From: Lachnospiraceae bacterium
Lineage (GTDB): Bacteria > Bacillota > Clostridia > Lachnospirales > Lachnospiraceae
Assembly: GCA_014804785.1 (NCBI GenBank)
Contig: JAAUZD010000004.1
Location: 1 to 64,000 of the forward strand
Reading direction: 5' to 3'
DNA: 64,000 nt
The translations under genes and the position numbers were made by a program. Of this stretch, positions 8,163 to 57,609 are shown piece by piece. The notes below the pieces were generated by a model. That model was not told the DNA's origin, made no database searches, and saw nothing but the letters and a program-made list of their open reading frames with translations. Within the stretch, counting starts at the first letter, position 1. The number at the start of each line of letters is the position of its first letter.

Positions 8163-8191
8163 ATGCTATCATGCTACCAAATAGAAGTCAA
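8163..8191 (-). promoter_or_regulatory. Probable sigma-A promoter of the ABC transporter run
   Basis: On the minus strand TTGACT (8186-8191) is followed after 17 bases by TAGCAT (8163-8168), about 85 bases ahead of the substrate-binding protein start. The -35 overlaps the last codons of the upstream coiled-coil gene. The -10 is weak, so this is tentative. Confidence 0.4.
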
Positions 8192-9372
8192 GAAAAATCC
8201 TCCTCATACTGCCCCACAATATCCAATATTTCCTTGGCATACTCCGGGTAACTTTCTGCAAGATCCTTGATTTCAGCCTGCGCTTTGCCCGCTATCACTT
8301 CTTTATTATAATCCATACGTCTTCTAAGAGACTGCCTTCTGATAATGAGATTATGACGAATTTCTACCATTTCTTTTCTGTCAAGAATTGCTTCCGTCTG
8401 ATGCAGCCAGATCATCGGATCCTTTATCTGATAACGGCGAAGGACACGTAAAAGCTCTTTCTGACACTGATCCAGCTGTCTTTCCGCCTGTTCAAAACTA
8501 TGCCGCTCTGCTTTTTCCTCCTGATACTGCTGCCAGCTTTTTCCTAGCTCACTGGCGCTGGATACATTGTACTTCATGTAGAGATAATCCAACAGGTGGG
8601 TATTATTGACATATCGTATTTTCACCGTATTCTGAAGCCTTATAATACGATTAATGCCATTTTCCACCCGGGACAGTTCTTTTACCGAATCGTTGTGTTT
8701 GATAAAAATTGCAGTGATGGCAATCGCTCCCACTGCTGCTACCGCAAGATACCCCAGCCTCGCATTCATTGCAAACCCAAACTGCAGGATGAACAAAAGC
8801 AGAATACATGCAATCACAGCAACCGTGCATACAATCGTCATTGATCTCGTATCCGCTATGACACGGCGCAGTTCATTTTTCCGGAACAGATACGCATGTT
8901 TCTCTCCATCCAGCTTGCGCAGATCTCTCTTGATACAATCCTGATATTCTTCTGCCTGAGTCAGTTTCTCAAATCCCTCTTGGACCTCCTCTTCCAGACG
9001 CTCCATCTGATGATACGCTTCATCGCTCATCCGGTTCTTCCTCTCTTTATATCCGGATTGCTGTTGCTCTAAGGCATCAATCTTTTTGGCACATTCCATA
9101 AGCTCTGCCATCTCTTCCTCAGGCAGAGCTTCAATTTCCTCCATATCCTTTAAATAGGCGGTGACCATATTGTATTCAAATTGAAGATTCTCAAGTTCTC
9201 TTGACGCCTCAGCAATCTGCTCAAGACAGCCTCTCACATATTCCTGACGCTGATTCTTGTCATCAATCTGATAGTCCTCCCGGTCATAGACGATTTCATT
9301 CCAATCCTCAACCTCGAACTCAGGCACTTCCTGTTTCTTTTTCCATTGCAGCAGTTTCTTTATTAAACCCAT
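8188..9372 (-). CDS. Coiled-coil membrane protein of unknown function (Hsp70-like cluster, fourth gene)
   Basis: I do not recognise a named family. The 394-residue protein has a charged N-terminal stretch, long heptad-rich coiled coils (about residues 45-165), two hydrophobic segments separated by a short basic turn (about 177-222), then a second coiled-coil part to the C-terminus. Both soluble arms would be on the same, probably cytoplasmic, side. There is no signal peptide. It follows the helical-repeat gene by 33 bp and is last in the minus-strand cluster with the DUF5716-like and DUF5717-like genes. A membrane anchor or scaffold for those proteins is an inference from order alone. The ribosome site is weak. 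Confidence 0.75.
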   Translation of the reverse strand: MGLIKKLLQWKKKQEVPEFEVEDWNEIVYDREDYQIDDKNQRQEYVRGCLEQIAEASRELENLQFEYNMVTAYLKDMEEIEALPEEEMAELMECAKKIDALEQQQSGYKERKNRMSDEAYHQMERLEEEVQEGFEKLTQAEEYQDCIKRDLRKLDGEKHAYLFRKNELRRVIADTRSMTIVCTVAVIACILLLFILQFGFAMNARLGYLAVAAVGAIAITAIFIKHNDSVKELSRVENGINRIIRLQNTVKIRYVNNTHLLDYLYMKYNVSSASELGKSWQQYQEEKAERHSFEQAERQLDQCQKELLRVLRRYQIKDPMIWLHQTEAILDRKEMVEIRHNLIIRRQSLRRRMDYNKEVIAGKAQAEIKDLAESYPEYAKEILDIVGQYEEDFS

Positions 9373-9405
9373 ATTTTTCTCATTTTCCTATCTGTTTTTG
9401 TTTAC

Positions 9406-10239
9406 TTACTGTCCCACCAGTTCCCTGTACTCATCCTTTTTACAGGAAATGATTTTGTCGATTTCTTCATAATAAGAAGCCACATTACCCTCATCTTTAT
9501 AAATCTTAAGTGCCGACAGCATTCTATTCTCCTCGGATGCTTCAAACTCTCCTTTTGCTGCCTCCAGTTTCTTTTCTACTTGTAATGAAAGATCATGGTA
9601 TTCCCCATGTTCTGCTATAAAAGCAATATAAGCACTCTCTGACAGGTGCATCCTCTGGGCTGTCAGATATTGCACCCCCGACTCGTTATTGCCTGTCATG
9701 CGATATGCTTTTTTGAAATACCGGGCTGCCATTTCAAACTGGAACAGACTCGCGTAAGCTACCCCCATGTTGTGGCAGATTAACGGTTTTAATGCACTTT
9801 CTGTCTCCGGCAGCTGTCTAAGCAGATGATCGTACTCCTCCAGCGCCAGACTGGGTTTTGCATTTTTCAGGAGGAAATCAGCCTGTCGTTTTTGTCTCTC
9901 ATAATCATTGAGCCCCACATTGCTCTGAAGCACATCCTCGATTTTCTTCTTTTCCTCCGGCGTACAATAATTTACATAATCCAAAATGACACTAACAAAA
10001 ATCCCCGGCTGGCTGCCCTTATGAAATAAATTGAGCAGCTGATGGCTCAGTTCTGTGAGACCGCACTCCCTATCCAGCCATTCCACAAGCCCTTCGTCCA
10101 TGATACCACGATTAATCATAAAAGGATTGCTGGCAAAAAGATAGCAAAGTTCCTCAACGCAGTATACATTCGCACATATACTCTCAATATAGTATGGTTT
10201 TTCGGCATATTTTCCTGTACATAATAAAATTCTGCCCAT
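9406..10239 (-). CDS. Helical-repeat (TPR-like) protein of unknown function (Hsp70-like cluster, third gene)
   Basis: A 277-residue soluble protein with no signal peptide or membrane helix. The central part (about residues 125-200) reads like two to three tetratricopeptide units: residues such as ALEEYDHLLRQLP and HNMGVAYASLFQFEMAARY fit the A/B helix pattern. The N-terminal 100 residues are unlike anything I can name. The start at 10239 has AGGAAATTT ahead of it. Ninety-two bases separate it from the degenerate Hsp70-like gene upstream. TPR proteins often bind chaperone tails, which fits the neighbourhood but is not shown. Confidence 0.75.
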   Translation of the reverse strand: MGRILLCTGKYAEKPYYIESICANVYCVEELCYLFASNPFMINRGIMDEGLVEWLDRECGLTELSHQLLNLFHKGSQPGIFVSVILDYVNYCTPEEKKKIEDVLQSNVGLNDYERQKRQADFLLKNAKPSLALEEYDHLLRQLPETESALKPLICHNMGVAYASLFQFEMAARYFKKAYRMTGNNESGVQYLTAQRMHLSESAYIAFIAEHGEYHDLSLQVEKKLEAAKGEFEASEENRMLSALKIYKDEGNVASYYEEIDKIISCKKDEYRELVGQ

Positions 10240-10300
10240 AAATTTCCTAAACCTTTCCCCGAAATTCTAAAAGCAGCTTCCTTTTGTGTGCATCAGTATT

Positions 10301-10327
10301 ACTGTGAAACCGAAAGCCAAGCTGCAA
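10301..10327. repeat. Imperfect inverted copy of the repeat at 11709-11736
   Basis: The 27-nt segment ACTGTGAAACCGAAAGCC... resembles the reverse complement of 11709-11736, with differences that are mostly transitions. The two copies flank the degenerate Hsp70-like gene in opposite orientation. Confidence 0.4.
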
Positions 10328-10331
10328 CATC

Positions 10332-11645
10332 TTATGAGATTATGATTGTCTGGGTCCATGCCTTTCCGCTGGATTTAAACAATTCTCCAAATCCCATATC
10401 TTCTATTGTGATTGCCGCCTGACCTATGGCGGTCATCTCAATGTGCACATTCAGTCTGGTCGTCCTCATTGGCCGGTCCGGCAAACCTTCCAGCGTCAAT
10501 ATCCTGTTCGTCACATTTCCGCCCGTAAGCGGAGTGACCACAAAATCCACTGTATTTCCGCTTTCCAGAATCAGATCAAAGTCCGCCTCCGCCTCATACC
10601 AATTGGTTCCCGCATCTAAAATCGCGTAATAGGAGTCTTCGCCCCGCCGCAGCACTCTTATCCCTATGTTGGATTTCAGTTTATCAGCACCCAGATATAC
10701 ATATTCTTTCCACTCCATGCTGGGGTTTAAACGTTCCATCATTCCATAACATGCACCCTTGCTGTACAAATTATTTCCCTGAAAGACCCGGCGGTTCCTG
10801 CACAGAAATTTTAATGACTCATTTGCCCAGTTCTCTTTAAAGCCATCCCCAAGCAAAAATACCGTAGAAACCATTCTCTCTCTCAGGCTTTCCTGTGAAA
10901 TGCCCAGGAACAGCTGATCCAATTTCTCCATCTGCTGTTTTTTGGCTTCCTCGTCCTCTTTCCAGACTCTCCGTCCCATTTCCGGATAATCTGTCTCCTC
11001 AATGAACACCACCTTAGGTGTAGTTCTCCCATTACACTCCAGGCATAGGTTCTTAAGTGTCTCGTGATATTCAAATATCATAACGTCATTTTTCCACAAT
11101 TCCCTGTCCTGGTGAAGGATGTAAGCATAAAAACTGTCCATATGGCTTTGAAAACAAATGTGCGAGGCGCCAAGCTTAAGCCCTGCCGCCACCTTCTCCA
11201 GTACATCCACCATACGCGGCGTAAGTTCCTCTACCGTAAACATAAACGCTTCAATCTGATTCAAAGGAACACGTAGGCTAAGAAGAGAAAGGCTTCTTTT
11301 CACGAACAGCGTAAGAAGGGCTGCCGGATCAAATGCTTCTCCTTCCACCACGACATCCTCACCGCGCTGCGCCAGTACAATCAGATCCTCTACAAGAATA
11401 CCGTCTTCCTCCTTTGCAAACTTGATGGCCTCTTTTCCATAATACCATTGCCCTACTCCTCTTCTTTTACAGAGCAATACCGGAATATTATACTGCTCCG
11501 TACCGGCAATCGCAGAAACGGTTTCTGGTTCAGTCTCCTCTATCCCGCAGTAACTGATCTGGGCAAAATCCCGCCCAAGATCGTAGCCAACAGCCACTTT
11601 TTTATAATTCTTTTTTCCTGTCTGATTTTTCTGACCCTGAAACAT
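10332..11645 (-). CDS. Degenerate Hsp70/actin-fold protein (DUF5716-like)
   Basis: The 437-residue protein can be aligned by eye with the HscC-type Hsp70 at 57610-59328. Phosphate-1 appears as VGYDLGRDF (19-27). Phosphate-2, normally FDFGGGTLD, is MIFEYHETLK (189-198), losing the glycines and catalytic Asp. The adenosine motif LVGGSS becomes LLGDGFK (264-270), followed by NLYSKGACYGM. The C-terminal 120 residues resemble the beta substrate-binding domain, including GGNVTNRILTLEGLP. It therefore looks like a pseudo-ATPase with a retained peptide-binding fold. I believe it belongs to the DUF5716 family, from memory of Lachnospiraceae annotation. The start at 11645 lies behind AGGGGG inside a dispersed repeat. 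Role unknown. Confidence 0.8.
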   Translation of the reverse strand: MFQGQKNQTGKKNYKKVAVGYDLGRDFAQISYCGIEETEPETVSAIAGTEQYNIPVLLCKRRGVGQWYYGKEAIKFAKEEDGILVEDLIVLAQRGEDVVVEGEAFDPAALLTLFVKRSLSLLSLRVPLNQIEAFMFTVEELTPRMVDVLEKVAAGLKLGASHICFQSHMDSFYAYILHQDRELWKNDVMIFEYHETLKNLCLECNGRTTPKVVFIEETDYPEMGRRVWKEDEEAKKQQMEKLDQLFLGISQESLRERMVSTVFLLGDGFKENWANESLKFLCRNRRVFQGNNLYSKGACYGMMERLNPSMEWKEYVYLGADKLKSNIGIRVLRRGEDSYYAILDAGTNWYEAEADFDLILESGNTVDFVVTPLTGGNVTNRILTLEGLPDRPMRTTRLNVHIEMTAIGQAAITIEDMGFGELFKSSGKAWTQTIIIS

Positions 11646-11652
11646 TCTTATA

Positions 11653-11689
11653 CCCCCTGCATACCGTAGACCATGTCTGCGGTACTGCG
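11653..11689. repeat. Dispersed short repeat carrying a ribosome-binding site, copy A
   Basis: A 37-base segment just upstream of the DUF5716-like start matches 37907-37944 upstream of folC at most positions. Both contain CTGCATACCG, AGACCATG and CTGCG, can fold on themselves, and supply the purine-rich ribosome site in the minus-strand transcript. Confidence 0.6.
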
Positions 11690-11708
11690 ATAATATATTT
11701 CCTGAACG

Positions 11709-11736
11709 GCTGCAGTTCAGCCTTCGGCTTCACAGT
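11709..11736. repeat. Imperfect inverted copy of the repeat at 10301-10327
   Basis: Lies in the 119-bp gap between the DUF5717-like and DUF5716-like genes. The local region can also form two small hairpins: CTGAAC/GTTCAG at 11702-11720 and AGCC-TTC-GGCT at 11719-11728. Confidence 0.4.
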
Positions 11737-11764
11737 GACACGAAAGCTAAACCCTCACCCGGTA

Positions 11765-14700
11765 TCAGAGCATATGGAACACTTCTTTTGCAATATAATC
11801 CTGCTCATAATATTCATACAACAGATTCTCCATGGTATCATAATCATGCAGGTTTCTTCCTATTGCAATATCATTCAGCATGGTATACTTGTTTTCCCTC
11901 TGCTCTCTCACCGTATCATTCCGGCTTAATGTCCCGCTTTCTGTCAGATATTCCTTTCCGTTTTCTATTTCTGTAATATAATACTGCAAATGCTCGCCAA
12001 AGAAAAGGATAAACTCTTTGACACATACGCCGCCAAACATATCCTTCATCTCTTCCTTGATATATTCTCCTTCTGTGCCTTCCTCTTTTTCCATCAGATA
12101 ATGGATGACTGCCTTATTTCCGTCTTTGATGTGGTATTCCACCATAGTCTTGTCCATAAACTGGCGCATAAAGGTAATATTATCCGCATATTCCTTAAAA
12201 TAAGGGAAATAAATATTCTGCATCAATATTTCCCGCAAAAATGCAAGCAGACTGCGCGAGATATTTTCATCCACCAGCTTCTTGTTCTCCGCATAATATT
12301 TTGTGTAAGCAAGCTTACATACAAGCGGTATCTCTTCCTGCCTGTTGATCACCCTCTGCATATCTTCCAGTACAAATTCACTGGTCACTTTATCCTGAAC
12401 AAAATAATCATACGCGCTCTGGGCAAGAAATGCCAGCTCCACCTCTGTTTTTGCTCCGCCGGATATATATTTTTTGAAAATCTCCGCTCCTTCTCCCACA
12501 AAAGCCCCTGTATAAAGCATCTGCATCAATATCCGCTCACAAAGTTCATAGGTATCCACCCCAAAGGCATCCGCCGCTTTCCAGACATCCCGCATTTCCT
12601 TACAGGTTCCCCTAAAATACATGCACAGGTAACGGAGCAGGTTTTCATCATATTTACCTGCTTTAAATGCCATAAACATAAGCATCGTCATGGTATCGTC
12701 TTCTGTCATGCCCTCAATCGCAAGCAGCCTGCTGCACAGCCTTACGATTAGCTTTGCTTCTATGCCTTCTCCTCCGCGGAGCTGTATCCAGTCATAGGCC
12801 TTCTCATACATTCCTCTAAGGACCATAAAACGCACAACCTGGGCAAAGCAATGATTCTCAATCTGTTCAGGCGACAATTCTTTCAGATAATCATCCAATT
12901 CCTTCATCCTGTCATGATCATAGTAGAAATGAATCAGTTTCATTCTGATTTCCCGCTGAATCTCCTCCTCCACCTGCTCTGATTCTGTAATGCGTTTCAT
13001 ATAGGCAACATTATTTTCATTGATTTGCGCCATCTCTTTTCCTTTTTCACAAAGCCAGAGATCAAAGTGAATGCAGTCTGTCACATAAGGCGCTATCATG
13101 GAAGCAATTTTATCCGGCATGAGAAGCCGCTCAACGCTATATTCCTCTCCTCTGCAATACCGGTTTCCCCTGCCGTCCTCCAAAAGCAGCTGGCAGTCAC
13201 TTCCGTAAACAGGAATATAAGTTTCCCTGCCTGTGACAGGATAAACCACTTCCTGCTTTTCCTTTTCATACACCAGAATCACTTTTCGTATGTCCCTGCG
13301 CATAATTGTAAGACGGTGCATAAAAAGCGCTGTGGAAAGCCCTTTTGCCGTCTCCTCTGTAATCATCATGGGCGTAATCAGATTTTTGTATAGGTATGCC
13401 AGATATTGATTATTTTTACCTTTCAGAATCTGGAATACTACAAAACGTTCTATCTGCTCCCGGTAGCTCTCATATAATTCCGGATACAGTGCCTTATTCC
13501 GATGGATATAAGCGTAGAGAAAAGAATTATGTAAACCATCCAGATTGCTGTCAAAGGCAAAATACATTAAAACGATTTTCGGAATCTCTTTATCCGGCGT
13601 AAGTCTTAAGGACATCATGTAATATTCATAAAGCCGTGTAATCCTCAGTTCCTTTTCAATCCCCTTTTCATACCATGGGAATGCAGATTCCTCCGTCACA
13701 TTTCCCTTGATCAGCAATGTACATATTGCCTGAAGCACTTCATCGGTGGGCACAATTTTATAACAACATTTTAATATGAAAAACAGCCTTTCAGAGTAAT
13801 TTTTCTGTTTTCCTGCCAGATAAACCACCTGCTCAATCACATCGGGCGTTAAAAGTTCCTTTTTGGCTGCATAATTCAGAACCTGCTGTTCAAATGAGGC
13901 AAGTTTCATAAGGAGCGTAGGATTCGATACAATCAGATTCCATGCTTCTATGTAAATGACTGGACTTTTGCACCCCTGCATGCATTGATCTTCCAGAATG
14001 ATCCACTTTCTGGCGGAACTTCTCGTATAGTCCTCCGCCAGATATAAGAGCAGCCATGCAATCTTCCAGTTATCAGAATTCTGTGTAAAAATCCGCTCTA
14101 CCTGCCCTGCCACTTCGTCTATATACTCTTCCTGCCTGTTAAGCAGCGTTGTCAGATAAAGATGATAGCAGTACAATGTCGGGTCAAAATCGCCTTCCAG
14201 GTCTCCCGATACCTGATCTAAGAACCACTGCGCCTCATTGTAACGCTCCTCCGTAATCAGGAGCTGTATCTGAAACAATTTTGCCGCCACATCCCGGTCA
14301 TCCATCTGAATTAACTTGTCAACCAGTTCTCCAGTTTCCTTCATCCATGAAGCGGCGCTGATTTTTCTGGTACGGAATGCCTCATAATACTGCATCAGTT
14401 CCATAATCATATGCTTCCGCTGTCTGCGCATTCCCAGCATCTTTGTGGTCACTGATTTATTTATGACCGTAATCTTCGCCGTAAGAGAAACATAGGGATT
14501 ATATAAGCGAATAGTGCCATAATTCCTTCCACCATGAAGTCGTTCTTCTGAAATGTAAAAAGGCAGCCTGTAGCAATTTCCCAGAAAATCCTCATCCCGG
14601 ATCACTTCCTTTTCCAGAACAAGAAAGTCTCCTTCTTTTTCTACGAAGAGTTCTGAATATCCCCAGCCATTGCGATTGATTACCAGCCGTCCCTCTTCCA

Positions 14701-15322
14701 TATTGACCGGATTGTCCATTCTGATTTCCGATTCCTCAAGCAAAAATTGGACCTTTTGCTTTTTTTTGATTTCCAGCAGGAACTCTTCCACATTCTGTTC
14801 TTTTCTGCCGCCTGCCGCAAGCCCCTTGTATATTCCATAATACTGCCTGTCCACACCGGTAAAGACACGTTCAAATTCCTTGGAATAAAACAGTCCTACC
14901 GCTTCCTCCCAATTGGTTCTGGCAAGATTTGCAAAATGAAAAAGATTTTTGATACTTCCAAGCTCCGACTGAAGCGTCCCCGAAACAATGCGCACATCAT
15001 AAGGGACATAATATTCCCCCTGATTAGAAATAATGCGAAATTCTCCTTTTATAGCATCCCCTTCTGTCATGCCGGAAGCATCAAAAAAATACAGGATTTC
15101 CTCCTTGGGACCTGAAAACCGATTTACCAGACATTTCATACGTAATCTGGTGGAAGATACGATTCCTTCCGTTACCTCGTTTTCGGGACCGAATATGGTG
15201 AAATTCCCTTCATAGTTCTCTCCCTCATGCAGAGAAAGTTCAATAACAGGATCCGAAAAATCCAGAGAGCGAATCCCTTTATTAAAATTTCCTTCTAAGA
15301 TTTTTTCTATTGTATCCTGCAC
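11765..15322 (-). CDS. Giant helical-repeat protein, DUF5717-like (Hsp70-like cluster, first gene)
   Basis: A 1185-residue soluble protein with no signal peptide. The first 150 or so residues look beta-rich (alternating hydrophobic strands such as NFTIFGPENEV and YYVPYDVRIVSG). A second beta-rich part follows to about residue 290, and then some 800 residues of alpha-helical repeat with TPR-like spacing. I believe it is the DUF5717 family, which I recall beside DUF5716 in Lachnospiraceae. The start is GTG 15322 behind GGAGG with nine-base spacing. It has its own promoter and leads the four-gene cluster. A scaffold or client-holding role with the Hsp70-like partner is inferred from neighbourhood alone. 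Confidence 0.8.
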   Translation of the reverse strand: MQDTIEKILEGNFNKGIRSLDFSDPVIELSLHEGENYEGNFTIFGPENEVTEGIVSSTRLRMKCLVNRFSGPKEEILYFFDASGMTEGDAIKGEFRIISNQGEYYVPYDVRIVSGTLQSELGSIKNLFHFANLARTNWEEAVGLFYSKEFERVFTGVDRQYYGIYKGLAAGGRKEQNVEEFLLEIKKKQKVQFLLEESEIRMDNPVNMEEGRLVINRNGWGYSELFVEKEGDFLVLEKEVIRDEDFLGNCYRLPFYISEERLHGGRNYGTIRLYNPYVSLTAKITVINKSVTTKMLGMRRQRKHMIMELMQYYEAFRTRKISAASWMKETGELVDKLIQMDDRDVAAKLFQIQLLITEERYNEAQWFLDQVSGDLEGDFDPTLYCYHLYLTTLLNRQEEYIDEVAGQVERIFTQNSDNWKIAWLLLYLAEDYTRSSARKWIILEDQCMQGCKSPVIYIEAWNLIVSNPTLLMKLASFEQQVLNYAAKKELLTPDVIEQVVYLAGKQKNYSERLFFILKCCYKIVPTDEVLQAICTLLIKGNVTEESAFPWYEKGIEKELRITRLYEYYMMSLRLTPDKEIPKIVLMYFAFDSNLDGLHNSFLYAYIHRNKALYPELYESYREQIERFVVFQILKGKNNQYLAYLYKNLITPMMITEETAKGLSTALFMHRLTIMRRDIRKVILVYEKEKQEVVYPVTGRETYIPVYGSDCQLLLEDGRGNRYCRGEEYSVERLLMPDKIASMIAPYVTDCIHFDLWLCEKGKEMAQINENNVAYMKRITESEQVEEEIQREIRMKLIHFYYDHDRMKELDDYLKELSPEQIENHCFAQVVRFMVLRGMYEKAYDWIQLRGGEGIEAKLIVRLCSRLLAIEGMTEDDTMTMLMFMAFKAGKYDENLLRYLCMYFRGTCKEMRDVWKAADAFGVDTYELCERILMQMLYTGAFVGEGAEIFKKYISGGAKTEVELAFLAQSAYDYFVQDKVTSEFVLEDMQRVINRQEEIPLVCKLAYTKYYAENKKLVDENISRSLLAFLREILMQNIYFPYFKEYADNITFMRQFMDKTMVEYHIKDGNKAVIHYLMEKEEGTEGEYIKEEMKDMFGGVCVKEFILFFGEHLQYYITEIENGKEYLTESGTLSRNDTVREQRENKYTMLNDIAIGRNLHDYDTMENLLYEYYEQDYIAKEVFHML

Positions 15323-15369: not shown

Positions 15370-15399
15370 AGTATACCATCATTCACTTGTTTTTCGCAA
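15370..15399 (-). promoter_or_regulatory. Sigma-A promoter of the DUF5717/DUF5716-like cluster
   Basis: Minus strand TTGCGA (15394-15399), an 18-base spacer ending TGG, and TATACT (15370-15375) form a good extended -10 promoter about 48 bases before the GTG start. Confidence 0.65.
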
Positions 15400-16901: not shown

Positions 16902-18983
16902 TTATTTTGTCAGAAGCATCATGATATCATTGCTTCTTGCCACAAATTTGCTCATTGCTTCCGGCTCAAGCGGTGCATGCTGCAAAAGAGCCAAATCATA
17001 CAGCTGCTCGCAAATCATATTGACATTGTCGCCTTCCGTATGCTCCATGATATATTGCACCAATGGATGGTTTGCGTTTAAAACCAGGGTTTCTCCTTCC
17101 TTTCCAAAACCTCCCATATCCATGCCCGGCATAGAGTACATCTTCATCATATCCTGCATTCTCCTGCTTTCCTCAGAAAGGGTAATCATAGAAGAGATCT
17201 TTTTGTTTTTAAGCTTTTCAACCTTGATGGTAATCTTATCCTTCTTTAGAACTTTTTTCATCACCTTGCCAATGGCGTCTGCTGCCTCTTCCAGTTCCTT
17301 TTCTGCCTTTTTACTGGTCTTTGCTTTAAAAGTATCTGTAAGGTCTGCATCGATTCTCTGGAACTTGATGCCCTCATTTTTTGCCTCCAGCTGGGAGATG
17401 AAAGGCTGATCGATGTTATGAGTCAGAATAACGGCATCCATCTTTGCTGCCTTGAACATGCTGATGTACTGTCCCTGTTGTTTTTCATCGGTCACATAAT
17501 AGATAACCTTTTCCTTCTTTTCTTCCTCATCTTCACCTTCGCCTGACTCCTCGTCTGCGCCGGTGCTTACTACATTACCGTCTGCGTCAACGACCTCGGC
17601 AGTCTGCGGCTCCTGTTCCTTCTCCTCCCCTTCTTCGTTATCCTCGATATCTGTCTTATTGACCTCCAGGCATTCGGGAAGCGTCAGATAGGTGCCCTCC
17701 AGATTCTTGAATAGAATATAGTCTGTCATCTTTTCGCAGAACTTGTCATCCTTAAGGCATCCGAATTTGATGAAAGGACTGATATCATCCCAGTATTTAT
17801 CATATTCTTCTTTTTCTGTCTTACACATACCGGAAAGTTTGTCTGCCACTTTCTTGGTAATATAATCAGAAATCTTCTTTACAAATCCATCATTCTGCAG
17901 TGCACTTCTCGATACGTTAAGGGGCAGATCCGGACAGTCGATGACGCCTTTTAGCAGCATCAGGAATTCGGGAATGACTTCCTTGATATTATCTGCAATG
18001 AACACTTGATTGTTGTACAGCTTGATCACGCCTTCAATGGACTCATATTCCATATTGATCTTAGGGAAGTACAAAATACCTTTTAAGTTGAAAGGATAAT
18101 CCATATTCAAATGAATCCAGAACAGCGGCTCCTTGTAATCCTGGAAAACTTTGCGGTAAAATTCCAGATACTCTTCTTTGGTACACTCGTTGGGATGTTT
18201 TGCCCAAAGAGGCATGGTTTCATTCAAAAGTTCCGGACGTTTGATGATCTTGTATCGTAATTTGTCTTCTTCCTTCTCTGGTTTGATTTCTTCCACTATA
18301 GTGTCTGTATCCAGCTTTTCCTCTGCATCGATGGTCTGGGTTTCTTTTGTATTTTCTTTAGAGAGATAAATCTCAATGGGCATGAAGGAACAGTATTTTT
18401 TGATTACCTCTCTTGCCTTATACTCATTGCAGAATTCCAGCACATCTTCATTTATGAACAAGGTGATGGTGGTACCAACTTCCGCTCTTTCTCCCTGCTT
18501 CATATCAAATTCTGTGCCGCCATCGCATTCCCAGTGAACAGGCTGTGCGCCTTCCTGCCAGGAAAGGGTATCGATATGCACTTCATCCGCCACCATGAAT
18601 GCTGAATAAAATCCCAGCCCGAAATGACCGATAATCTGATCTTCATTAGTTTTGTCTTTGTATTTTGCAATAAAATCCGTTGCACCGGAAAAAGCAATCT
18701 GATTAATATATTCTTCAACTTCATCCGCTGTCATACCGATACCGTTATCGATGAACTTAAGGGTTTTCTCCTCAGGGTTTACCAGCACCTGTATTTTCCC
18801 TTTAAAATCTTCTGGAAGGGTATATTCCCCCATCATGTCCAGCTTCTTCAGTTTGGTTATGGCATCACAGCCATTGGATATCAATTCCCTGAAAAAAATG
18901 TCATGGTCTGAATATAACCATTTCTTGATAATCGGGAATATGTTTTCACTGTTGATTGATAAGCTTCCGTGTTTCTCTGCCAC
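16902..18983 (-). CDS. htpG: Hsp90-family chaperone HtpG
   Basis: A cytosolic ATP-dependent Hsp90 homodimer, 693 residues. The N-terminal GHKL ATPase motifs are clear: ELISNGCDAITKLK, DNGIGMT and GHFGLGFYSAF. The middle domain carries the conserved RSALQ segment (LNVSRSALQ) with its catalytic-loop Arg. Around residues 460-500 there is a very acidic insertion rich in Glu, Asp and Gly, longer than in E. coli HtpG, before the C-terminal dimer domain. It is monocistronic or ends at the hairpin 16796-16839. A perfect CIRCE and a consensus-like promoter lie upstream, so HrcA repression is expected. Confidence 0.97.
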   Translation of the reverse strand: MAEKHGSLSINSENIFPIIKKWLYSDHDIFFRELISNGCDAITKLKKLDMMGEYTLPEDFKGKIQVLVNPEEKTLKFIDNGIGMTADEVEEYINQIAFSGATDFIAKYKDKTNEDQIIGHFGLGFYSAFMVADEVHIDTLSWQEGAQPVHWECDGGTEFDMKQGERAEVGTTITLFINEDVLEFCNEYKAREVIKKYCSFMPIEIYLSKENTKETQTIDAEEKLDTDTIVEEIKPEKEEDKLRYKIIKRPELLNETMPLWAKHPNECTKEEYLEFYRKVFQDYKEPLFWIHLNMDYPFNLKGILYFPKINMEYESIEGVIKLYNNQVFIADNIKEVIPEFLMLLKGVIDCPDLPLNVSRSALQNDGFVKKISDYITKKVADKLSGMCKTEKEEYDKYWDDISPFIKFGCLKDDKFCEKMTDYILFKNLEGTYLTLPECLEVNKTDIEDNEEGEEKEQEPQTAEVVDADGNVVSTGADEESGEGEDEEEKKEKVIYYVTDEKQQGQYISMFKAAKMDAVILTHNIDQPFISQLEAKNEGIKFQRIDADLTDTFKAKTSKKAEKELEEAADAIGKVMKKVLKKDKITIKVEKLKNKKISSMITLSEESRRMQDMMKMYSMPGMDMGGFGKEGETLVLNANHPLVQYIMEHTEGDNVNMICEQLYDLALLQHAPLEPEAMSKFVARSNDIMMLLTK

Positions 18984-19077
18984 GATAAATCACTCCTTTT
19001 TTATTCTTTCCTTCAATCTCCGTATTTCTGAAACAGATGACCGCCCGTTTTACGACAGCCTTCTTAAACTAAAATTA

Positions 19078-19106
19078 AGTGTAATTCCCTTTCCTTTAAA
19101 AGTCAA
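19078..19106 (-). promoter_or_regulatory. Sigma-A promoter of htpG
   Basis: Minus strand TTGACT (19101-19106), 17 bases, TACACT (19078-19083), ending about 95 bases before the htpG ATG. The CIRCE operator lies just upstream of the -35. Confidence 0.7.
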
Positions 19107-19113
19107 GATAAAA

Positions 19114-19140
19114 TTAGCACTCATTTTACGCGAGTGCTAA
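19114..19140. promoter_or_regulatory. CIRCE operator (HrcA-binding inverted repeat) of htpG
   Basis: TTAGCACTC, nine bases, GAGTGCTAA: an exact match to the CIRCE consensus. HrcA binds this element to repress chaperone genes until heat shock titrates its GroEL-dependent activity. It lies 7 bp upstream of the htpG -35 box. The other neighbour, the PpiC lipoprotein gene, ends towards it, so only htpG is a plausible target. Confidence 0.95.
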
Positions 19141-19243
19141 CAGTTGTTCTGAAAGGCTGTATTTTAGGGCTTTCAGCAAATCTAAAATTTTTATTAACTA
19201 AACTCCGCAACAAGTGCGCAGTTCTGATTGACGGTTACACTTT

Positions 19244-20317
19244 TCACTCAAAATATTGGTTATAAATATCAAAAAAATCCCTGGTCGTGACCTCCTCATT
19301 TTCAATAAATGTAACTGTTTTCCAAAGTTCGTCATTTAAAGTTCTGGTGAGAGACGTCACAAATGCATCATACTCCTGTCCAAATACCTCTTCCCGCCGC
19401 TTTTCAACAATCTTCACTTTATTTGCATCTGTCTCTTCCCTATTGAAGGTACTGATACATTTGATGATGTGGTACCCATATTCCGTTTCCACAATATCAC
19501 TGATTTCCCCGGTTCCTAAATTGAACGCTGCTTCCTCAAAGGCAGGATCCGTTTCCCCTTTGCCGAAAGAGATAGTTCCCTTATCTCCCTCACTGTACTG
19601 GAGCACCAGTTCCTCAAAATCGCTGTCCTCTTCTAATGCCAGTTTCAGGATTTCTTCTGCCTGCTGCCTTGCCTCTTCCTTGGCATTTTGTGTATATTCT
19701 ATCTTTTTCCCTGTACCGTCCAGCGCGTACGTTACAATCAGTATATGTTCTACCGTAATGGTTCTGGCTTCATCATCACTGATTTCCGGATTGATATCCT
19801 TAATGATATATTCATAGACCTTATTTGCCAGTGCAAACTCTGCATACAGATTCTCAACGGTTTCCACTGTGACATTCATGCACTCACTCTCTGCCTGGTT
19901 TAAAGAATTGTAATATGCGGCGGCGGCAGTTTTCACTGTCTTTAATTCTGCTTCACTTAGGGCAACGCCATGCTGCTGTGCCAGAAGATTCATGGTCTTA
20001 ATCTGGGCAAGCTGCGCAAGAACCGTCTCCTTTACATTTTCTTCCAGTGTGACGCCGTTTAAATCCGTTTTCCATATTTCTTTTCCATAAACACTTTCAT
20101 ACTGGTCCTGAGTATTTGTGAGATACACCATGACCTCCGGCAGCGTGCAGGACATGGTTTCTATCCTGAAAATCTCATCCCTTTTAAAGCCTGTGGTCAA
20201 CACAAGCTTTGTATCTGCATCTTTCTTTTGACAGCCTCCAGCCGCAAAAAGAAAAAATCCGCAAAACAGCATGATAAAAATCCTCTTTCCCCTCATTCCT
20301 CTGCTTCCTGTTTTCAT
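19244..20317 (-). CDS. Peptidyl-prolyl cis-trans isomerase lipoprotein (PpiC/PrsA-like)
   Basis: A 357-residue extracytoplasmic folding factor. A basic N-terminus, a hydrophobic stretch and the lipobox FAAGGC give a lipidated Cys29. A SurA/PrsA-type helical N domain follows. The parvulin domain (about residues 190-290) shows VEHILIVTY, LQYSEGDKGTISFGKGE and EYGYHIIKC. Its start overlaps the stop of the FAD oxidoreductase gene by four bases (ATGA), so the two are translationally coupled; this is the last gene of the PHP-sbcDC run. It probably assists folding of exported proteins on the outer face of the membrane. Confidence 0.9.
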   Translation of the reverse strand: MKTGSRGMRGKRIFIMLFCGFFLFAAGGCQKKDADTKLVLTTGFKRDEIFRIETMSCTLPEVMVYLTNTQDQYESVYGKEIWKTDLNGVTLEENVKETVLAQLAQIKTMNLLAQQHGVALSEAELKTVKTAAAAYYNSLNQAESECMNVTVETVENLYAEFALANKVYEYIIKDINPEISDDEARTITVEHILIVTYALDGTGKKIEYTQNAKEEARQQAEEILKLALEEDSDFEELVLQYSEGDKGTISFGKGETDPAFEEAAFNLGTGEISDIVETEYGYHIIKCISTFNREETDANKVKIVEKRREEVFGQEYDAFVTSLTRTLNDELWKTVTFIENEEVTTRDFFDIYNQYFE

Positions 20318-36622: not shown

Positions 36623-37900
36623 TTATTTTCTCCTCATCAGGGACTTCATCTGTCCTATCAAATACATTGAACCGGCAATATATATCACATCCTCATTCCC
36701 TTTCAGGGATAAAAGATGATGATATGCCTCTTCGGCACCAATATGGAAACTGCAAATCATTTCCGTACATTGCCCCCAAATTGTTTTCAGTTCTTCTATG
36801 GACACACTTCTATCTGTTTCTAAAAGAGTTACGGCTGCTTGGTCAAAAAGCCCGGATTTTATAATCTTCTGGATCATAAAATCATAACGCTTGTCCCGGA
36901 CGACCCCAAACAGTAAAAATCTTTTTCCTCTGCACCCGTCCCTTTCAACTGTATGCAGAAATGCCTCTATGCCATCTTCATTATGCGCGCCATCCAGGTA
37001 AATCCCCGGCATGGCTTCTTCCATCCTGCCCGGCCATTGGGCAGACCACAAGCCTTTTCTGACAGAATCTTCTGTAATTCCTGCATCCTGCAGCACTTCT
37101 GATGCTGCAACTGCCAGTGCTGCATTTTCTGTCTGATACAGCGCAACTGTATCCAATAAAAGACTAACATAATTATAATAACCAGTATGGAGTGAAAAAT
37201 CAATGCTTTTATTGTTTATATTCACATTCAAAATATTGTTTTTTCCGATTATAATCGTGGGACTTTGTGCTTTTTTCGCATATTCAGTCAAAACCTTTGT
37301 ACTCTCCGCTCTTTTGTCCATAAATACCACCGGCACGCCTTTCTTTATAATGCCGGCTTTCTCCGCAGCAATCTTTGAAAGACTGTTTCCCAGATATTGC
37401 ATGTGATCATAGCCGATTTCTGTAATCACACACACTTCAGGCTTTTCAATGCAGTTCGTCGCATCCAGCCTTCCTCCCATACCCGTTTCCAGAATAATAT
37501 ATTCCGGTTCTTTCACCTTAAAGTAAGCCATCGCCATCAGAAAAAGAAACTCAAAAAAGGATGGATGATTCTTGCTATCTACTGTTTCTATAACCCTGCC
37601 AAAGCAGCTTACAAACTCTTCTTTTGAGATCATCACATCGTTGATACTGATTCTTTCCCTCATGGTTTCCAGGTGGGGCGAGATAAACATCCCCACACTA
37701 TATCTGCTCTCCATCAGGATAGAACGCAAATAAGCACAAACGGAACCTTTTCCGTTTGTGCCTGCAACATGAATGATCCTGCTCTTAATTCTGCCGCCGG
37801 AAATCTGATCTAACAATTCTTTTGTATCCTTCAGAGTATGCTTTCCGGCAAACTTAGGGATATCAAGAATATATTTCTCCACATCCTCATACGATTTCAT
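36623..37900 (-). CDS. folC: Folylpolyglutamate synthase / dihydrofolate synthase
   Basis: A Mur-ligase-family enzyme that adds glutamate to folates, 425 residues. The P-loop HVAGTNGKGSVCAYL, ISPHLE, ILETGMGGRLDATN and DGAHNEDGIEAF are all conserved. ATG 37900 (MKSYEDVEKYIL) follows AGGGG in a dispersed repeat; the frame continues 48 bases further but without support. Genes after it (the 49-residue protein and the TPR protein) are tightly coupled, with no evident functional link. Confidence 0.95.
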   Translation of the reverse strand: MKSYEDVEKYILDIPKFAGKHTLKDTKELLDQISGGRIKSRIIHVAGTNGKGSVCAYLRSILMESRYSVGMFISPHLETMRERISINDVMISKEEFVSCFGRVIETVDSKNHPSFFEFLFLMAMAYFKVKEPEYIILETGMGGRLDATNCIEKPEVCVITEIGYDHMQYLGNSLSKIAAEKAGIIKKGVPVVFMDKRAESTKVLTEYAKKAQSPTIIIGKNNILNVNINNKSIDFSLHTGYYNYVSLLLDTVALYQTENAALAVAASEVLQDAGITEDSVRKGLWSAQWPGRMEEAMPGIYLDGAHNEDGIEAFLHTVERDGCRGKRFLLFGVVRDKRYDFMIQKIIKSGLFDQAAVTLLETDRSVSIEELKTIWGQCTEMICSFHIGAEEAYHHLLSLKGNEDVIYIAGSMYLIGQMKSLMRRK

Positions 37901-37906
37901 ATTTAT

Positions 37907-37944
37907 CCCCTCTGCATACCGCAGACCATGCCTGCGATGCTGCG
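37907..37944. repeat. Dispersed short repeat carrying a ribosome-binding site, copy B
   Basis: Matches 11653-11689 with only a few differences. It lies directly before the folC start and contains its AGAGGGG ribosome site in minus-strand sense. A shorter relative (GTATGCAGAGGG) precedes purF. Confidence 0.6.
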
Positions 37945-37954
37945 TCAATGCATC

Positions 37955-39529
37955 TTAAGAATACGCAATGACACTGCTTTCAATCATGCCTCTTTCCTGA
38001 TAATACTTCATAAAGCAGGTATTTCTTTCGATTGGCATCTGAATCTGGGCAAGGCAGACTACTGTACCTCGATAAACATTGCCATTTACCACAATCTCTG
38101 ACCGCTTGCCCTTGGCTATGGTCGCTTCGCATTTTTTCCGCTCAATCGTGTTCTCCTCAATCTCCTTCTTCAAGGCTTTCACCCTGGTCTCAAGATTCTT
38201 TATCCGGCTCTCCATAATATCCGGGATTTTACCGTTTGCTACCTTTTTCTTGTAAAGAAGGTCTGATACTTTCTCTGACAGTTCCTGCAATTCCGTGGCC
38301 TGCTCTGCCTCTACCGCCTTGACCATCTGCAGTCTCGTATAGACTTCCTTTTCACTTCCCACATGAATTACAGTCCTTACCTCTGCCGGGTTTCCGATTT
38401 CAGTCGCGGATATACCCATCATCGCATGTGTATATCCGCCAATAATGGCGCCCTTATTCCCTGTAAGGATGACCTGTCCTTCAGATGATATTCTGGAATT
38501 TAAGATAGTATTCGCTTGTACATTGCCTCCGGCAACTACCACTGTATGTTCAATAAAATCTGCAAAAATATTGCCTCTTGCAGAAATCTTTGCTCTCTGG
38601 GCCCCCTGAATGCCCTTTTTCAAAATGATGTCTCCGCCTGCAAATAAATTAACCGCTTCAACTGTTCCCTTAACTTCAATATTCCTTCCCGCCCGGATCA
38701 CCACGCCTGCTTCTACATTGCCGTTGATGACGATATCTCCAAAAAATTCAACCTTTCCGGTTATCAAAGTGACATCCCCATTAATCTCATGCATGGACTG
38801 AATATCTACTTTGCCGTCTTTAAATTCAATCTTTCCGTCCTTCTGCGCCAGATAAACATCCGGGTTATCTTTACTGCTGACCACCTGCCCTCTGAGGGGT
38901 GGAGCTTCTTTCACCTTTTTCGCCTGCAGTACCCTTCCTCTTACATCATATCCGTTCTCTCCTGCCTCGGAATGATGATAAATTGCAATTACCTCGTCTT
39001 TGCGGACATTCTGGAGTACGCTCATGCTGGTATAATCCACGCTGCCATCAGGCAAGACCTTTGGCGCCCTATGCCGGTCAGGGTCGAATTTATATTCATA
39101 ATATCCATCCTTCCCCTCAATCGCCGGCTGTCCCTTTGCCACAACGATTTCACGCTCATATACCTTCTTTTTGATCATCGCAGTCAGATTAGAGTGATGA
39201 TACCCTGTGGTTATCCCTTTCTTTTTAAGGAAATCCACGATTTCCTCCATGGTGTATTTTTCTTTTCCCTTTCCGGGTACTGCCAAATACAGCCACGCGT
39301 GCATATCATCCTCCGCAATTTTTATGTAAGAACCGTTTTCCTCTATGCTAAGGGCATTGGTATTGGTCTCATCTATAATATCACTCAGCATCTGACCGTT
39401 CGGGATTGGCTCAAATAACGTCTCCTCACTTTTAGCTGTCGATCCGCCATCCTCCATAATCAGCGCTTCCATTTCCTTCCGAAGTTCCGCAATCTCATCT
39501 TCTGATAAAAAATCTGTCTTGCTGCCCAT
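37955..39529 (-). CDS. FapA (DUF342) family protein
   Basis: A 524-residue cytoplasmic protein. The N-terminal part (to about residue 150) is the FapA N domain. The centre is the beta-helical DUF342 core with regularly spaced Gly/Asn-rich turns (DIVINGNVEAGVVIRAGRNIEV split over two rungs, NLFAGGDIILKKGIQG). A coiled coil (about 420-480) precedes a last beta segment. The family has been linked to envelope or polymer assembly and flagellar control in some bacteria, but its activity here is unknown. It stands alone between folC and valS; the start lies behind GGGAGG. Confidence 0.9.
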   Translation of the reverse strand: MGSKTDFLSEDEIAELRKEMEALIMEDGGSTAKSEETLFEPIPNGQMLSDIIDETNTNALSIEENGSYIKIAEDDMHAWLYLAVPGKGKEKYTMEEIVDFLKKKGITTGYHHSNLTAMIKKKVYEREIVVAKGQPAIEGKDGYYEYKFDPDRHRAPKVLPDGSVDYTSMSVLQNVRKDEVIAIYHHSEAGENGYDVRGRVLQAKKVKEAPPLRGQVVSSKDNPDVYLAQKDGKIEFKDGKVDIQSMHEINGDVTLITGKVEFFGDIVINGNVEAGVVIRAGRNIEVKGTVEAVNLFAGGDIILKKGIQGAQRAKISARGNIFADFIEHTVVVAGGNVQANTILNSRISSEGQVILTGNKGAIIGGYTHAMMGISATEIGNPAEVRTVIHVGSEKEVYTRLQMVKAVEAEQATELQELSEKVSDLLYKKKVANGKIPDIMESRIKNLETRVKALKKEIEENTIERKKCEATIAKGKRSEIVVNGNVYRGTVVCLAQIQMPIERNTCFMKYYQERGMIESSVIAYS

Positions 39530-39587
39530 CTTGTGCCCTCCCTTCTTTTTATTATTTATAATGACACTATCATTATAATATCATCAC

Positions 39588-39645
39588 AAATTTCATTACT
39601 ATTGTAATACCATTACTATTGTAACATCATTACTATCATTGTTGC
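39588..39645. repeat. AT-rich short direct repeats upstream of the FapA-family gene
   Basis: Units of about 17 bases of the form TTACAATAGTAATG (minus-strand sense) occur twice exactly, with partial copies on either side, within the 130-base gap ahead of the FapA-family start. Confidence 0.6.
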
Positions 39646-39659
39646 AAACATAAAAAAAA

Positions 39660-39690
39660 GAACCGTAATCTAATTTTAAGATTACGGTTC
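39660..39690 (-). terminator. Rho-independent terminator of valS
   Basis: A 12-bp stem, GAACCGTAATCT with AGATTACGGTTC and a 7-nt loop, followed on the minus strand by eight T residues. It starts 5 bp past the valS stop. Confidence 0.92.
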
Positions 39691-39695
39691 CCTTT

Positions 39696-42356
39696 CTACT
39701 TCTGCAGCTGTGCAAGGCGCATTTTAACCTGTTCCATCATCTGCGTATACTTGGTGCGTTTTTCTCTTTCTTCAGAAATCTTTGCCTCCGGTGCCTTGGA
39801 TACAAATTTCTCATTATTCAGCATACCGTTGACACGGGCAAGTTCACCCTCAAGTCTCTTTTCCTCTTTTTTAAGGCGTTCAATTTCCTGACCTAAGTCA
39901 ACCAGTTCTGCAAAAGGGATATAAAGAGTTGCATTGGCAATCACTACCGATACTGCATCCTCAGCGATACCCGCCTTATCCTTCTGAATGGTTACTTCCG
40001 ATGCATATGCAAGGGAGCCGAAAAACAGTCTGCCTTCTGTAAAGGCATTGATGATTGCTTCCTCTTCACTTACCACAAATACCTGCGCCTTTCTGCTGGG
40101 AGCAACATTCATTTCTGTACGGACATTCCTGATTCCCCTTACTGCTTCCTTGATGATTTCAATATCCTTTTCTTCCTTTTCAAAGTTCCATGCAGTCTGA
40201 TACTCGGGCCACTTAGAAATCATGATAGATTCCTCTTCGGACTGCAGTGTACAGAAAATTTCCTCTGTAATGAAAGGCATATATGGATGAAGCAATTTAA
40301 GCGCATGAAGCAGGACTGTTTTCAGCGTCCAAAGTGCTGCATCTTTACTCATCTGATCATCTGAATTATAGAGACGGGGCTTCACCATCTCGATATACCA
40401 GTCGCAGAATTCATCCCAGATAAAGTCATAAACCTTCTGAACCGCAATACCAAGTTCAAAGCTGTCCATATTGTCTGTTACCTCTTTGATCAGCGTATTC
40501 AGTTTAGACAGAATCCACTTGTCAACCGGTTCTAAGGAAGGATTTTCCACCTTTAAGCCTTCTTCCGGCATATTCATCATAATAAAGCGGGAAGCATTCC
40601 ATATTTTGTTTGCAAAATTTCTGCTTGCCTCCACTCTCTCATAGTAGAAACGCATATCATTGCCGGGTGCATTTCCCGTAATCAGCGTGAGACGCAGTGC
40701 ATCCGCGCCGTACTGATCAATGATTTCAAGGGGATCAATTCCGTTGCCCAGCGATTTACTCATCTTACGTCCCTGAGAATCCCTTACAAGACCATGGAAC
40801 AATACCGTCTTAAACGGTTTTTCACCCATCTGCTCATAACCTGAAAAGATCATACGGATTACCCAGAAGAAAATAATATCATACCCGGTTACCAGCACAT
40901 CTGTGGGATAAAAATATTTCAGATCTTCTGTCTGCTTGGGCCATCCCAGCGTTGAGAAAGGCCAGAGCGCTGAGGAAAACCATGTATCGAGCGTATCCGG
41001 ATCCTGCGTAAAATGATCGCATCCGCACTTAGGGCACTTAGAAGGCTCTGCGGCGCTTACCACAACTTCACCGCATTTATCACAGTAATAAGCCGGAATC
41101 CGGTGTCCCCACCAGAGCTGTCTGGAAATACACCAGTCACGGATATTATCAGTCCAGTTAAAATAGGTCTTTTCCATACGTTTCGGAATCAACTGGATAT
41201 CACCGTTTTTCACTGCTTCCACAGCTGGTTTGATCAGTTCCTCCATCTTCACGAACCACTGCTGCTTGATCATAGGCTCGATGGTGGTCTTGCACCGGTC
41301 ATGGGTTCCCACATTATGGGAATAATCTTCAATCTTTACTAAAAGCCCCATCTCATCCAGTTCTTTTACAATGGCGTTTCTTGCTTCATAACGGTCCATT
41401 CCGCAGAACTTGCCGCCATTTTCATTGATGGTGGCATCATCATTCAAGATATTGATTTCCGACAGGTTATGACGCTTGCCGACCTCGAAATCGTTAGGGT
41501 CATGGGCAGGTGTGATTTTTACTACACCGGTACCGAATTCCATATCCACATAAGAATCTGCCACTACCGGAATTTCCCTATTGACAATGGGAAGCATCAG
41601 CGTCTTGCCAATGATATCCTTGTACCTGTCATCTTCCGGATTGACTGCCACAGCAGTATCTCCCAACATTGTTTCCGGTCTGGTGGTTGCAAATTCCACG
41701 AATCGTGTGGTACTTACACTGCCATCCTCTTCAATGACAGGATATTTGATATGCCAGAAATGCCCTGCCTGCTCTGCATATTCCACCTCTGCATCCGATA
41801 TGGAAGTATTGCAGACCGGACACCAGTTGATGATACGGCTTCCTTTATAAATCCAGCCCTTTTCATGCATCTTACAGAATACTTCCGTTACAGCCTTATT
41901 ACAGCCTTCATCCATGGTAAAACGCTCTCTATCCCAGTCACAGGAGGAGCCCAGTTTCTTTAACTGACTGATGATTCTTCCGCCGTATTCCTTTTTCCAA
42001 TCCCATGCACGTTCCAGAAAGCCGTCACGTCCCAGATCTTCCTTGCTGATGCCCTCTTCCTTCAGCTTTTCGATAATCTTAACTTCGGTTGCAATGCTGG
42101 CATGATCCGTGCCCGGCTGCCATAGTGCATTATATCCCTGCATCCTCTTAAATCGGATCAGAATATCCTGCATGGTGTTATCCAGTGCATGTCCCATATG
42201 AAGCTGCCCTGTGATATTTGGAGGGGGAATTACAATGGTAAAAGGCGTCTTGGAATGGTCTACTTCGGCATGGAAATACTTCTTTTCCAGCCATTTCTCA
42301 TAAATTCTGTCCTCGATTCCTTTAGGATCATAGGTCTTTGCAAGTTCTTTGCTCAT
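39696..42356 (-). CDS. valS: Valyl-tRNA synthetase
   Basis: Class I synthetase of 886 residues that charges tRNA-Val and edits Thr-tRNA-Val. The HIGH motif is seen in [15 protein letters not shown] and the KMSKS motif in [13 protein letters not shown]. The CP1 editing domain is present ([13 protein letters not shown]) and the C-terminal tRNA-contacting coiled coil covers about the last 65 residues. CxxC pairs (CPVC; CDKC with CPKC) suggest structural zinc. It is preceded by a T-box leader with its own promoter and followed by a strong terminator, so it is a single-gene unit regulated by uncharged tRNA-Val. Confidence 0.98.
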
Positions 42357-57523: not shown

Positions 57524-57609
57524 ATGTTTCCTCCAAATATCCTGACCCTATAGCTTTCTGGCGCTATTCATTTTCCGGTCATTTTCCAAGCCTTTTCCGT
57601 TCTTCCTGT

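Follow-up and report, generated by a model that had tools for sequence, protein, structure and literature searches.

A pseudo-Hsp70 and its neighbor genes in Lachnospiraceae, most likely a reduced form of a larger Hsp70 locus

What can an Hsp70-like protein do for a cell after its ATPase site has decayed, and which genes stay with it? This question is raised by four neighboring genes in a stretch of 64,000 nucleotides (nt) from a Lachnospiraceae bacterium (GenBank assembly GCA_014804785.1, contig JAAUZD010000004.1, positions 1 to 64,000 of the forward strand), which is called the window here. A preliminary description, made from the letters of the window alone, had noted four open reading frames (ORFs) of one orientation at 8188..15322. 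This cluster is real; each ORF lies on the minus strand within the span given, and they encode DUF5717, DUF5716, TPR and two-transmembrane proteins, respectively, and the genes are named A to D below:

11765-15322, minus strand: gene A, a DUF5717_N plus DUF5717 protein of 1185 amino acids with a GTG start (Pfam)
10332-11645, minus strand: gene B, a DUF5716 pseudo-Hsp70 of 437 amino acids (Pfam, profile comparisons and alignment)
9406-10239, minus strand: gene C, a TPR protein of 277 amino acids (Pfam and profile)
8188-9372, minus strand: gene D, a protein of 394 amino acids with two central transmembrane helices and long arms (hydropathy)

The gaps between them are 119 nt (A-B), 92 nt (B-C) and 33 nt (C-D). 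The way in which the cluster had been interpreted is partly supported, and the window, we consider, most likely encodes an Hsp70 machine in reduced form, in which the pseudo-ATPase was kept and the ATPases were lost.

The Pfam families expected in the preliminary description, DUF5717 for A and DUF5716 for B, were indeed found, and none of A to D had an NCBIfam match above the cut-off of that database. B matches DUF5716_C with an E value of 5.7e-109 (364.1 bits against a curated cut-off of 34.7). When 64 B proteins of Lachnospiraceae (hereafter, the family) were compared with ten Hsp70s by hhalign, the probability was 98.4 and the E value 8.5e-15 over 403 columns. A profile of 18 B proteins, two of which were B1 proteins from other families of the order (hereafter, the outgroups), had DnaK as its top match in the PDB (1.3e-5). 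Furthermore, B1 of the outgroup locus L053 resembles both its neighbor B2, an Hsp70 (3.2e-67), and the family B of L116 (2.6e-30), and a chance resemblance of B to Hsp70 is ruled out by this bridge through B1 and B2. In a tree, which carries long-branch warnings, B and B1 branch separately from the Hsp70s that bear the motifs, and their closest attachment is to B2. One comparison, made against a two-sequence profile, was much weaker, with an E value of 0.0026 and a probability of only 11. Judged by these profiles, B is homologous to Hsp70 and a member of the Hsp70 superfamily by descent. An Hsp70 origin is thereby shown for DUF5716; Pfam lists DUF5716_C (PF18980), DUF5717 (PF18983) and DUF5717_N (PF18984) as families of unknown function.

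In terms of layout, B retains lobe I and part of subdomain IIA of the nucleotide-binding domain (NBD) of Hsp70 as well as the beta part of the substrate-binding domain (SBD-beta), and has lost the lid and the greater part of subdomain IIB. The parts concerned are as follows:

11562..11588, minus strand: degenerate phosphate-1 loop of B, GYDLGRDFA against GIDLGTTNS in the DnaK of the same genome (alignment)
11040..11084, minus strand: place of the lost phosphate-2 motif of B, VMIFEYHETLKNLCL against MVYDLGGGTFDVSII in DnaK (alignment)
10371..10682, minus strand: SBD-beta-like C-terminal part of B, about residues 322-425 (column alignment)

The patterns of phosphate 2 (GGGT..D), the catalytic Glu-Pro (EP) and phosphate 1 (GIDxGTTN) were each found in 0 of 101 family B proteins; they were also found in 0/21 of the outgroup B1 proteins, as opposed to 21/21 of X, a neighboring outgroup Hsp70. 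The Lys70-Arg pair is lost in all five family B proteins aligned, and a loose KR pattern, with its position anywhere in the protein, occurs in 2/99. From phosphate 2 to the adenosine loop, five family B proteins have 65-74 residues versus 142 in DnaK. In B of the window, 13 of 78 IIB columns and 18 of 144 lid columns were aligned. For SBD-beta, 91 of 114 columns were aligned, and this part is also covered by the full-length alignment over 403 columns; the second-domain match to DnaK 380-461 in the PDB search with the B profile was weak and non-significant. B hence looks catalytically dead, and its sequence lacks the motifs, the lid and most of the IIB expected of a functional Hsp70 chaperone. 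The proposal of an Hsp70-related system with a pseudo-ATPase is supported in this respect by both the profile match and the absence of the motifs.

The four genes had also been regarded as one unit, from their order and spacing. Among 150 Lachnospiraceae genomes, one per genus, DUF5716_C and DUF5717 were each found in 145; both A and B were present in 144, only one of them in two (G146 and G020) and neither in four, and B was mostly single-copy. Far from being rarely adjacent, A is directly upstream of B (i.e., with match starts within 2.5 kb of each other on the same strand) in 141 of the 144, and the remaining three have A and B on different contigs; the claim of one unit is thereby supported. 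Beyond this sample, the 245 genomes from the class include 9 with DUF5716_C, all Lachnospiraceae, while DUF5717 was found in 6 of 398 genomes of the phylum (five Lachnospiraceae and one below the cut-off, G522) and in 62 of 116 genomes of the order Lachnospirales (11 Lachnospiraceae and 51 of other families). Neither was found in any of 14 control genomes. Phage records had no near DNA match to the locus, and plasmid records no protein match of B.

Loci were also compared in two further sets. The 80 named loci are the best 80 of at least 578, with a bias towards near relatives; they are mostly titled Lachnospiraceae or its genera, together with a few Bacillota, Bacillus sp. and a Muribaculaceae metagenome-assembled genome (MAG). 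The 20 diverse family loci (L067-L086) were hand-picked, partly for weak matches or long frames, so that shares among them are biased, and some named loci share a genome with them (L110 and L067). In L127, the B gene was found by tblastn and no ORF matches the B profile, possibly owing to a broken or misassembled copy. In the window and the 80 named relatives, the median gaps are 19 nt for A-B (79 pairs), 18 nt for B-C (75 pairs) and 11 nt for C-D (70 pairs), and A to D were all called in 69 of 81 loci. The preliminary description had further placed a single good promoter before A:

15370..15399, minus strand: promoter-like site of A, TTGCGA, 18 nt and TATACT, with TG before the -10 hexamer (scan and alignment)

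The promoter scan by itself was rejected as evidence, with 25 sites found against 21.6 expected, which is the level of chance. What stands is the -10 hexamer; TATACT is kept before A in 18 of 19 aligned upstream regions (counted by eye; the window and 18 of the closer members among the 80 relatives) and is missing in L096. The dN/dS ratios against the nearest relative, L087, are 0.052 for A, 0.074 for B and 0.043 for D and point to constraint; C is uncalled in L087 and has a single usable pair (L089) with a ratio of 0.038, and several further pairs were saturated. In L087, indeed, no C ORF is found between B and D despite B being 92% identical to that of the window, which would reflect either a frameshift in the MAG or a real loss.

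Where, then, did this set of genes come from? In the outgroups, the order is A_N, A_C, X (Hsp70), Y (GrpE fusion), B1 (pseudo-Hsp70), B2 (Hsp70), Z (Hsp70-VWA), C (TPR) and D (transmembrane); compared with the family locus, therefore, four extra genes lie between, namely the motif-bearing Hsp70s X and B2 together with Y and Z. In L053, the HSP70 matches are 6.2e-78 for X, 1.6e-63 for B2 and 8.1e-92 for Z, with a VWA domain at the end of Z and a GrpE domain at the end of Y (Pfam, 7.1e-11), and B1 matches both DUF5716_C (2.2e-33) and HSP70 (1.8e-14). B1 is thus already motif-less in the outgroups, beside three Hsp70s with intact motifs. The presence of these Hsp70s and of the GrpE fusion between the same genes elsewhere in the order was invisible from the window. 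The full A-to-D set was seen in L047 with L187 and in L051 with L186; Z and C are each two ORFs in L047, and one A ORF was called in L051. Among the outgroup rows, L060 and L184 come from one genome, and L055 is near-identical to L057. Some loci are partial: L056 and L058 have no B2, L050 consists of A_N, A_C, X, Y and B1, and L064 consists of A_N, A_C and B1. Since L050 and L064 are both of family f87 and have WecG and YitT genes downstream in common, the difference between them arose in place. In the genome of L064 (G406), Y is absent, and the absence of X, B2 and Z was read at the locus only and not searched elsewhere. In three loci read from family f77 (L189, L190 and L192), the genes of the system are dispersed. 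In Lachnospiraceae, A, B, C and often D stand in unchanged order, and the locus has none of X, Y, B2 and Z.

The gene Y is inherited together with A. A profile of Y had strong matches (E < 1e-20, as counted among the rows listed) in 50 of the 116 genomes of the order, all of them non-Lachnospiraceae and all with DUF5717. Outside Lachnospiraceae, Y is present in 50 of 51 A-positive genomes, G406 being the exception, versus 0 of 54 A-negative genomes; the genomes are related, and these co-occurrences are hence not independent events. Within Lachnospiraceae, strong matches numbered 0/11 in the order sample and 0/150 in the family sample, where three weak matches covered the GrpE part only, in frames of 220-245 codons. 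In the phylum sample, no match was better than 1.7e-10. A strict link between the loss of IIB and the loss of Y was considered and is not upheld by L064. By parsimony and without a species tree, we infer that the nine-gene locus is ancestral and that the Lachnospiraceae form is reduced.

A matches DUF5717_N and DUF5717 with E values of 0 and 2.9e-105 (1079.7 and 352.3 bits against a curated cut-off of 25). It had been described as a helical protein, and by eye a long helical region is present; it is preceded by about 300 N-terminal residues that look beta-rich by eye, with an unproven Ig-like pattern. In most outgroup loci, A is two ORFs, A_N of about 400 and A_C of about 900 amino acids. In L066 (G484, a Lachnospiraceae genome), A.853 is preceded by an ORF of 385 amino acids, perhaps a split A as in the outgroups; this ORF did not match the A profile, and the L066 locus is already reduced to A-B-C. 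The family profile of A had no PDB match at E<=1, and a PDB match of the N-terminal profile at E 0.48 was judged non-credible. When 12 N-terminal members were scanned against Pfam, DUF5717_N alone matched all 12, and 14 other families matched one member each, at 0.0022 or worse; the fold of A could thus not be fixed by sequence. No transmembrane helices were predicted by hydropathy in A, B or C.

C of the window alone stays below the Pfam TPR cut-offs (TPR_2, 1.7e-5), while a profile built from nine C proteins, including four longer orthologues from the outgroups, matched PDB TPR chains with a best E value of 3.2e-52, so that C is clearly a TPR protein, as had been suggested. The six complete outgroup orthologues have 383-390 amino acids. 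C comes after B or is fused to it in 20/20 of the fetched diverse family loci; B frames of 690-727 codons occur in 5 of the 145 family genomes, and all five are one B-C ORF (L073-L077, fetched on purpose). For D, which had been called a coiled-coil membrane protein, two transmembrane helices are predicted by hydropathy and the coiled-coil arms were seen by eye only:

8785..8841, minus strand: transmembrane helix 1 of D, residues 178-196 (hydropathy)
8695..8751, minus strand: transmembrane helix 2 of D, residues 208-226 (hydropathy)

D has no Pfam match above cut-off. It is a less constant member, called in 72 of the 80 named relatives but in only 4 of the 20 more diverse family loci. Three outgroup loci have an orthologue of D, which comes after the TPR gene in L186 and L187 and after a gene of 308 amino acids without a match to the C profile in L188; the other outgroup loci end before D or have different genes after C. 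In L187 and L188, the locus is followed by valS (at 88 and 186 bp), which is also within 400 bp of the locus in 6 of the 20 family loci (L074, L076, L078, L079, L081 and L086). In the window, valS and folC, frequent downstream neighbors in relatives, are at 36623-42356, more than 20 kb away on the same strand and upstream of A.

How might such a set work? We propose that A would be the main scaffold and B a nucleotide-free holder, whose retained SBD-beta would bind a stretch of peptide, either from a client or from A. C would be the adaptor on which B docks, which would fit the B-C fusions, and D, where present, would be the membrane anchor of the complex. Clients of the larger machine would be loaded and unloaded by X, B2 and Z, with Y as the exchange factor; the Lachnospiraceae form would have kept no more than the holding or assembly step, perhaps fed by the DnaK of the cell or by a second Hsp70. 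Taken as a whole, the reading that the operon encodes an Hsp70-derived scaffold working without nucleotide turnover, with this division of labor, is in our estimate slightly favored. That B is a pseudo-Hsp70 and that the genes are one unit we hold much more firmly than these roles, which we infer. A bolder version is tentative and would more probably fail than hold: a nine-gene Hsp70 complex shrank in the ancestry of Lachnospiraceae to a pseudo-Hsp70 plus a scaffold, giving an ATP-free, family-wide and partly membrane-linked assembly complex, with L064 of f87 as a parallel case. As L064 kept only A and the pseudo-Hsp70 at its locus, the dead subunit and the scaffold, and not the ATPases, would be the core.

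Compared with known systems, B is like the canonical DnaK/GrpE/DnaJ machine in its layout of NBD lobe I and SBD-beta; among the outgroup genes, X, B2 and Z are Hsp70s whose motifs are intact, and Y has a GrpE domain. The family locus differs in that its B is without the catalytic motifs, the lid and most of IIB and in that it has no GrpE fusion; A, C and D are not known as parts of the DnaK machine. The nearest described system is the HSP70/GrpE theme of the GAP1-N2 GTPase systems, for which Kaur et al. 2020 (PMC7159879) list HSP70 and GrpE together with another HSP70-domain protein and a repeat protein that is fused to DnaJ or TPR, a parts list alike in outline. For type III CoCoNuTs, PMC11090510 describes the Hsp70-like units CnuD/CnuCD, with a degenerate Hsp70 NBD/SBD and HEAT-like helical repeats; these are McrBC-type restriction systems, however, and no such genes are among those annotated here. 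In the open-licence literature, a scope outside which most subscription journals and preprint-only work fall, no account of this locus was found; searches by the names DUF5716 and DUF5717 gave unrelated literature only, and those by the three Pfam accessions gave nothing.

The likeness to GAP1-N2 systems raises the alternative of a defence system for biological conflict, in which chaperone parts gate an effector. Both the conflict theme (PMC7159879) and the larger locus have Hsp70s, GrpE and TPRs, the latter adding VWA; moreover, GAP1-N2 was found in 9 of the 116 genomes of the order, eight of which also have DUF5717, and in PADLOC the candidate PDC-M61B resembles B2 (3.9e-11) and Z (2e-7) in their Hsp70 part and ZorA3 weakly resembles Y (0.0014):

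L053:2359-3999: B2 of L053, weak PADLOC match, perhaps general Hsp70 likeness
L053:287-2362: Z of L053, weak PADLOC match, perhaps general Hsp70 likeness
L053:5627-7519: Y of L053, weak PADLOC match

For A to D themselves, however, PADLOC gave no match at E<=0.01, and a scan of locus genes of L053, L047 and L059 showed no GAP1 family. GAP1-N2 and DUF5717 are on different contigs in all eight genomes with both, although they may be linked in trans there; seven of the nine GAP1-N2 matches fall in family f77. The system here is also kept, mostly with a single B, in nearly all sampled genera of the family, in a shared chromosomal place with valS as a neighbor common to the family and outgroups, and phage records had no near DNA match and plasmid records no protein match of B, as described above. 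We thus regard defence as the least probable of the alternatives.

Three other alternatives concern the parts of the system. B might still be a nucleotide sensor that binds ATP without hydrolysis through its leftover glycines and thereby switches the complex, inasmuch as the Gly-x-Asp of phosphate 1 and the Gly-x-Gly-Phe of the adenosine loop are largely kept (alignment), with G20, G266, G268 and F269 invariant in an eight-row alignment; this is unlikely, however, as Lys70-Arg, Glu171-Pro and GGGT are lost, and the five family B proteins measured are without most of IIB, which contributes to the nucleotide cleft. An equally improbable view is that A, B and C alone are the system and that D belongs with downstream amino-acid ABC transporter genes. 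A gene for an SBP_bac_3 protein indeed follows D in the window, and D is uncalled in 16 of the 20 diverse loci, but the outgroup orthologues of D stand behind the TPR gene or a gene at that place, their next gene is valS in L187 and L188, and the median C-D gap is as short as 11 nt. Finally, the complex may serve the assembly of a single dedicated client, such as one of the cell envelope or a secretion complex, with B as a fixed subunit and not a chaperone. This overlaps with the ATP-free scaffold that we favor and would fit the family-wide retention, the absence of an ATPase at the locus and the dedicated membrane protein in many members; no constant client gene is beside the locus, though, where neighbors vary, and we consider it doubtful, if less so than the other alternatives.

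Further chaperone genes are found in the window. A second Hsp70 locus at 56432-60765 (minus strand), a possible ATPase partner in trans, encodes a protein of 478 amino acids with an N-terminal transmembrane helix and no Pfam match at E<=0.01, an Hsp70 of 572 amino acids with intact motifs and a J-domain protein with one transmembrane helix. This Hsp70 (57610-59328) was considered as a moved member of the system and rejected with doubt; it groups with DnaK, on a flagged long branch. Also, an Hsp90 protein, a PPIC-type prolyl isomerase and trigger factor are encoded at 16902-20317 and 54444-55730.

If the reading of an Hsp70-derived, ATP-free scaffold is true, an origin would be named for proteins of unknown function that 145 of the 150 genomes sampled, each from a different genus of Lachnospiraceae, have retained; this family is prominent in the gut. 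The contacts of B with C and of B with A would be predictions that are testable at once. The full locus, the partial loci and the pseudo-Hsp70 plus scaffold would then form a natural series for asking what an ATP-free Hsp70 can do.
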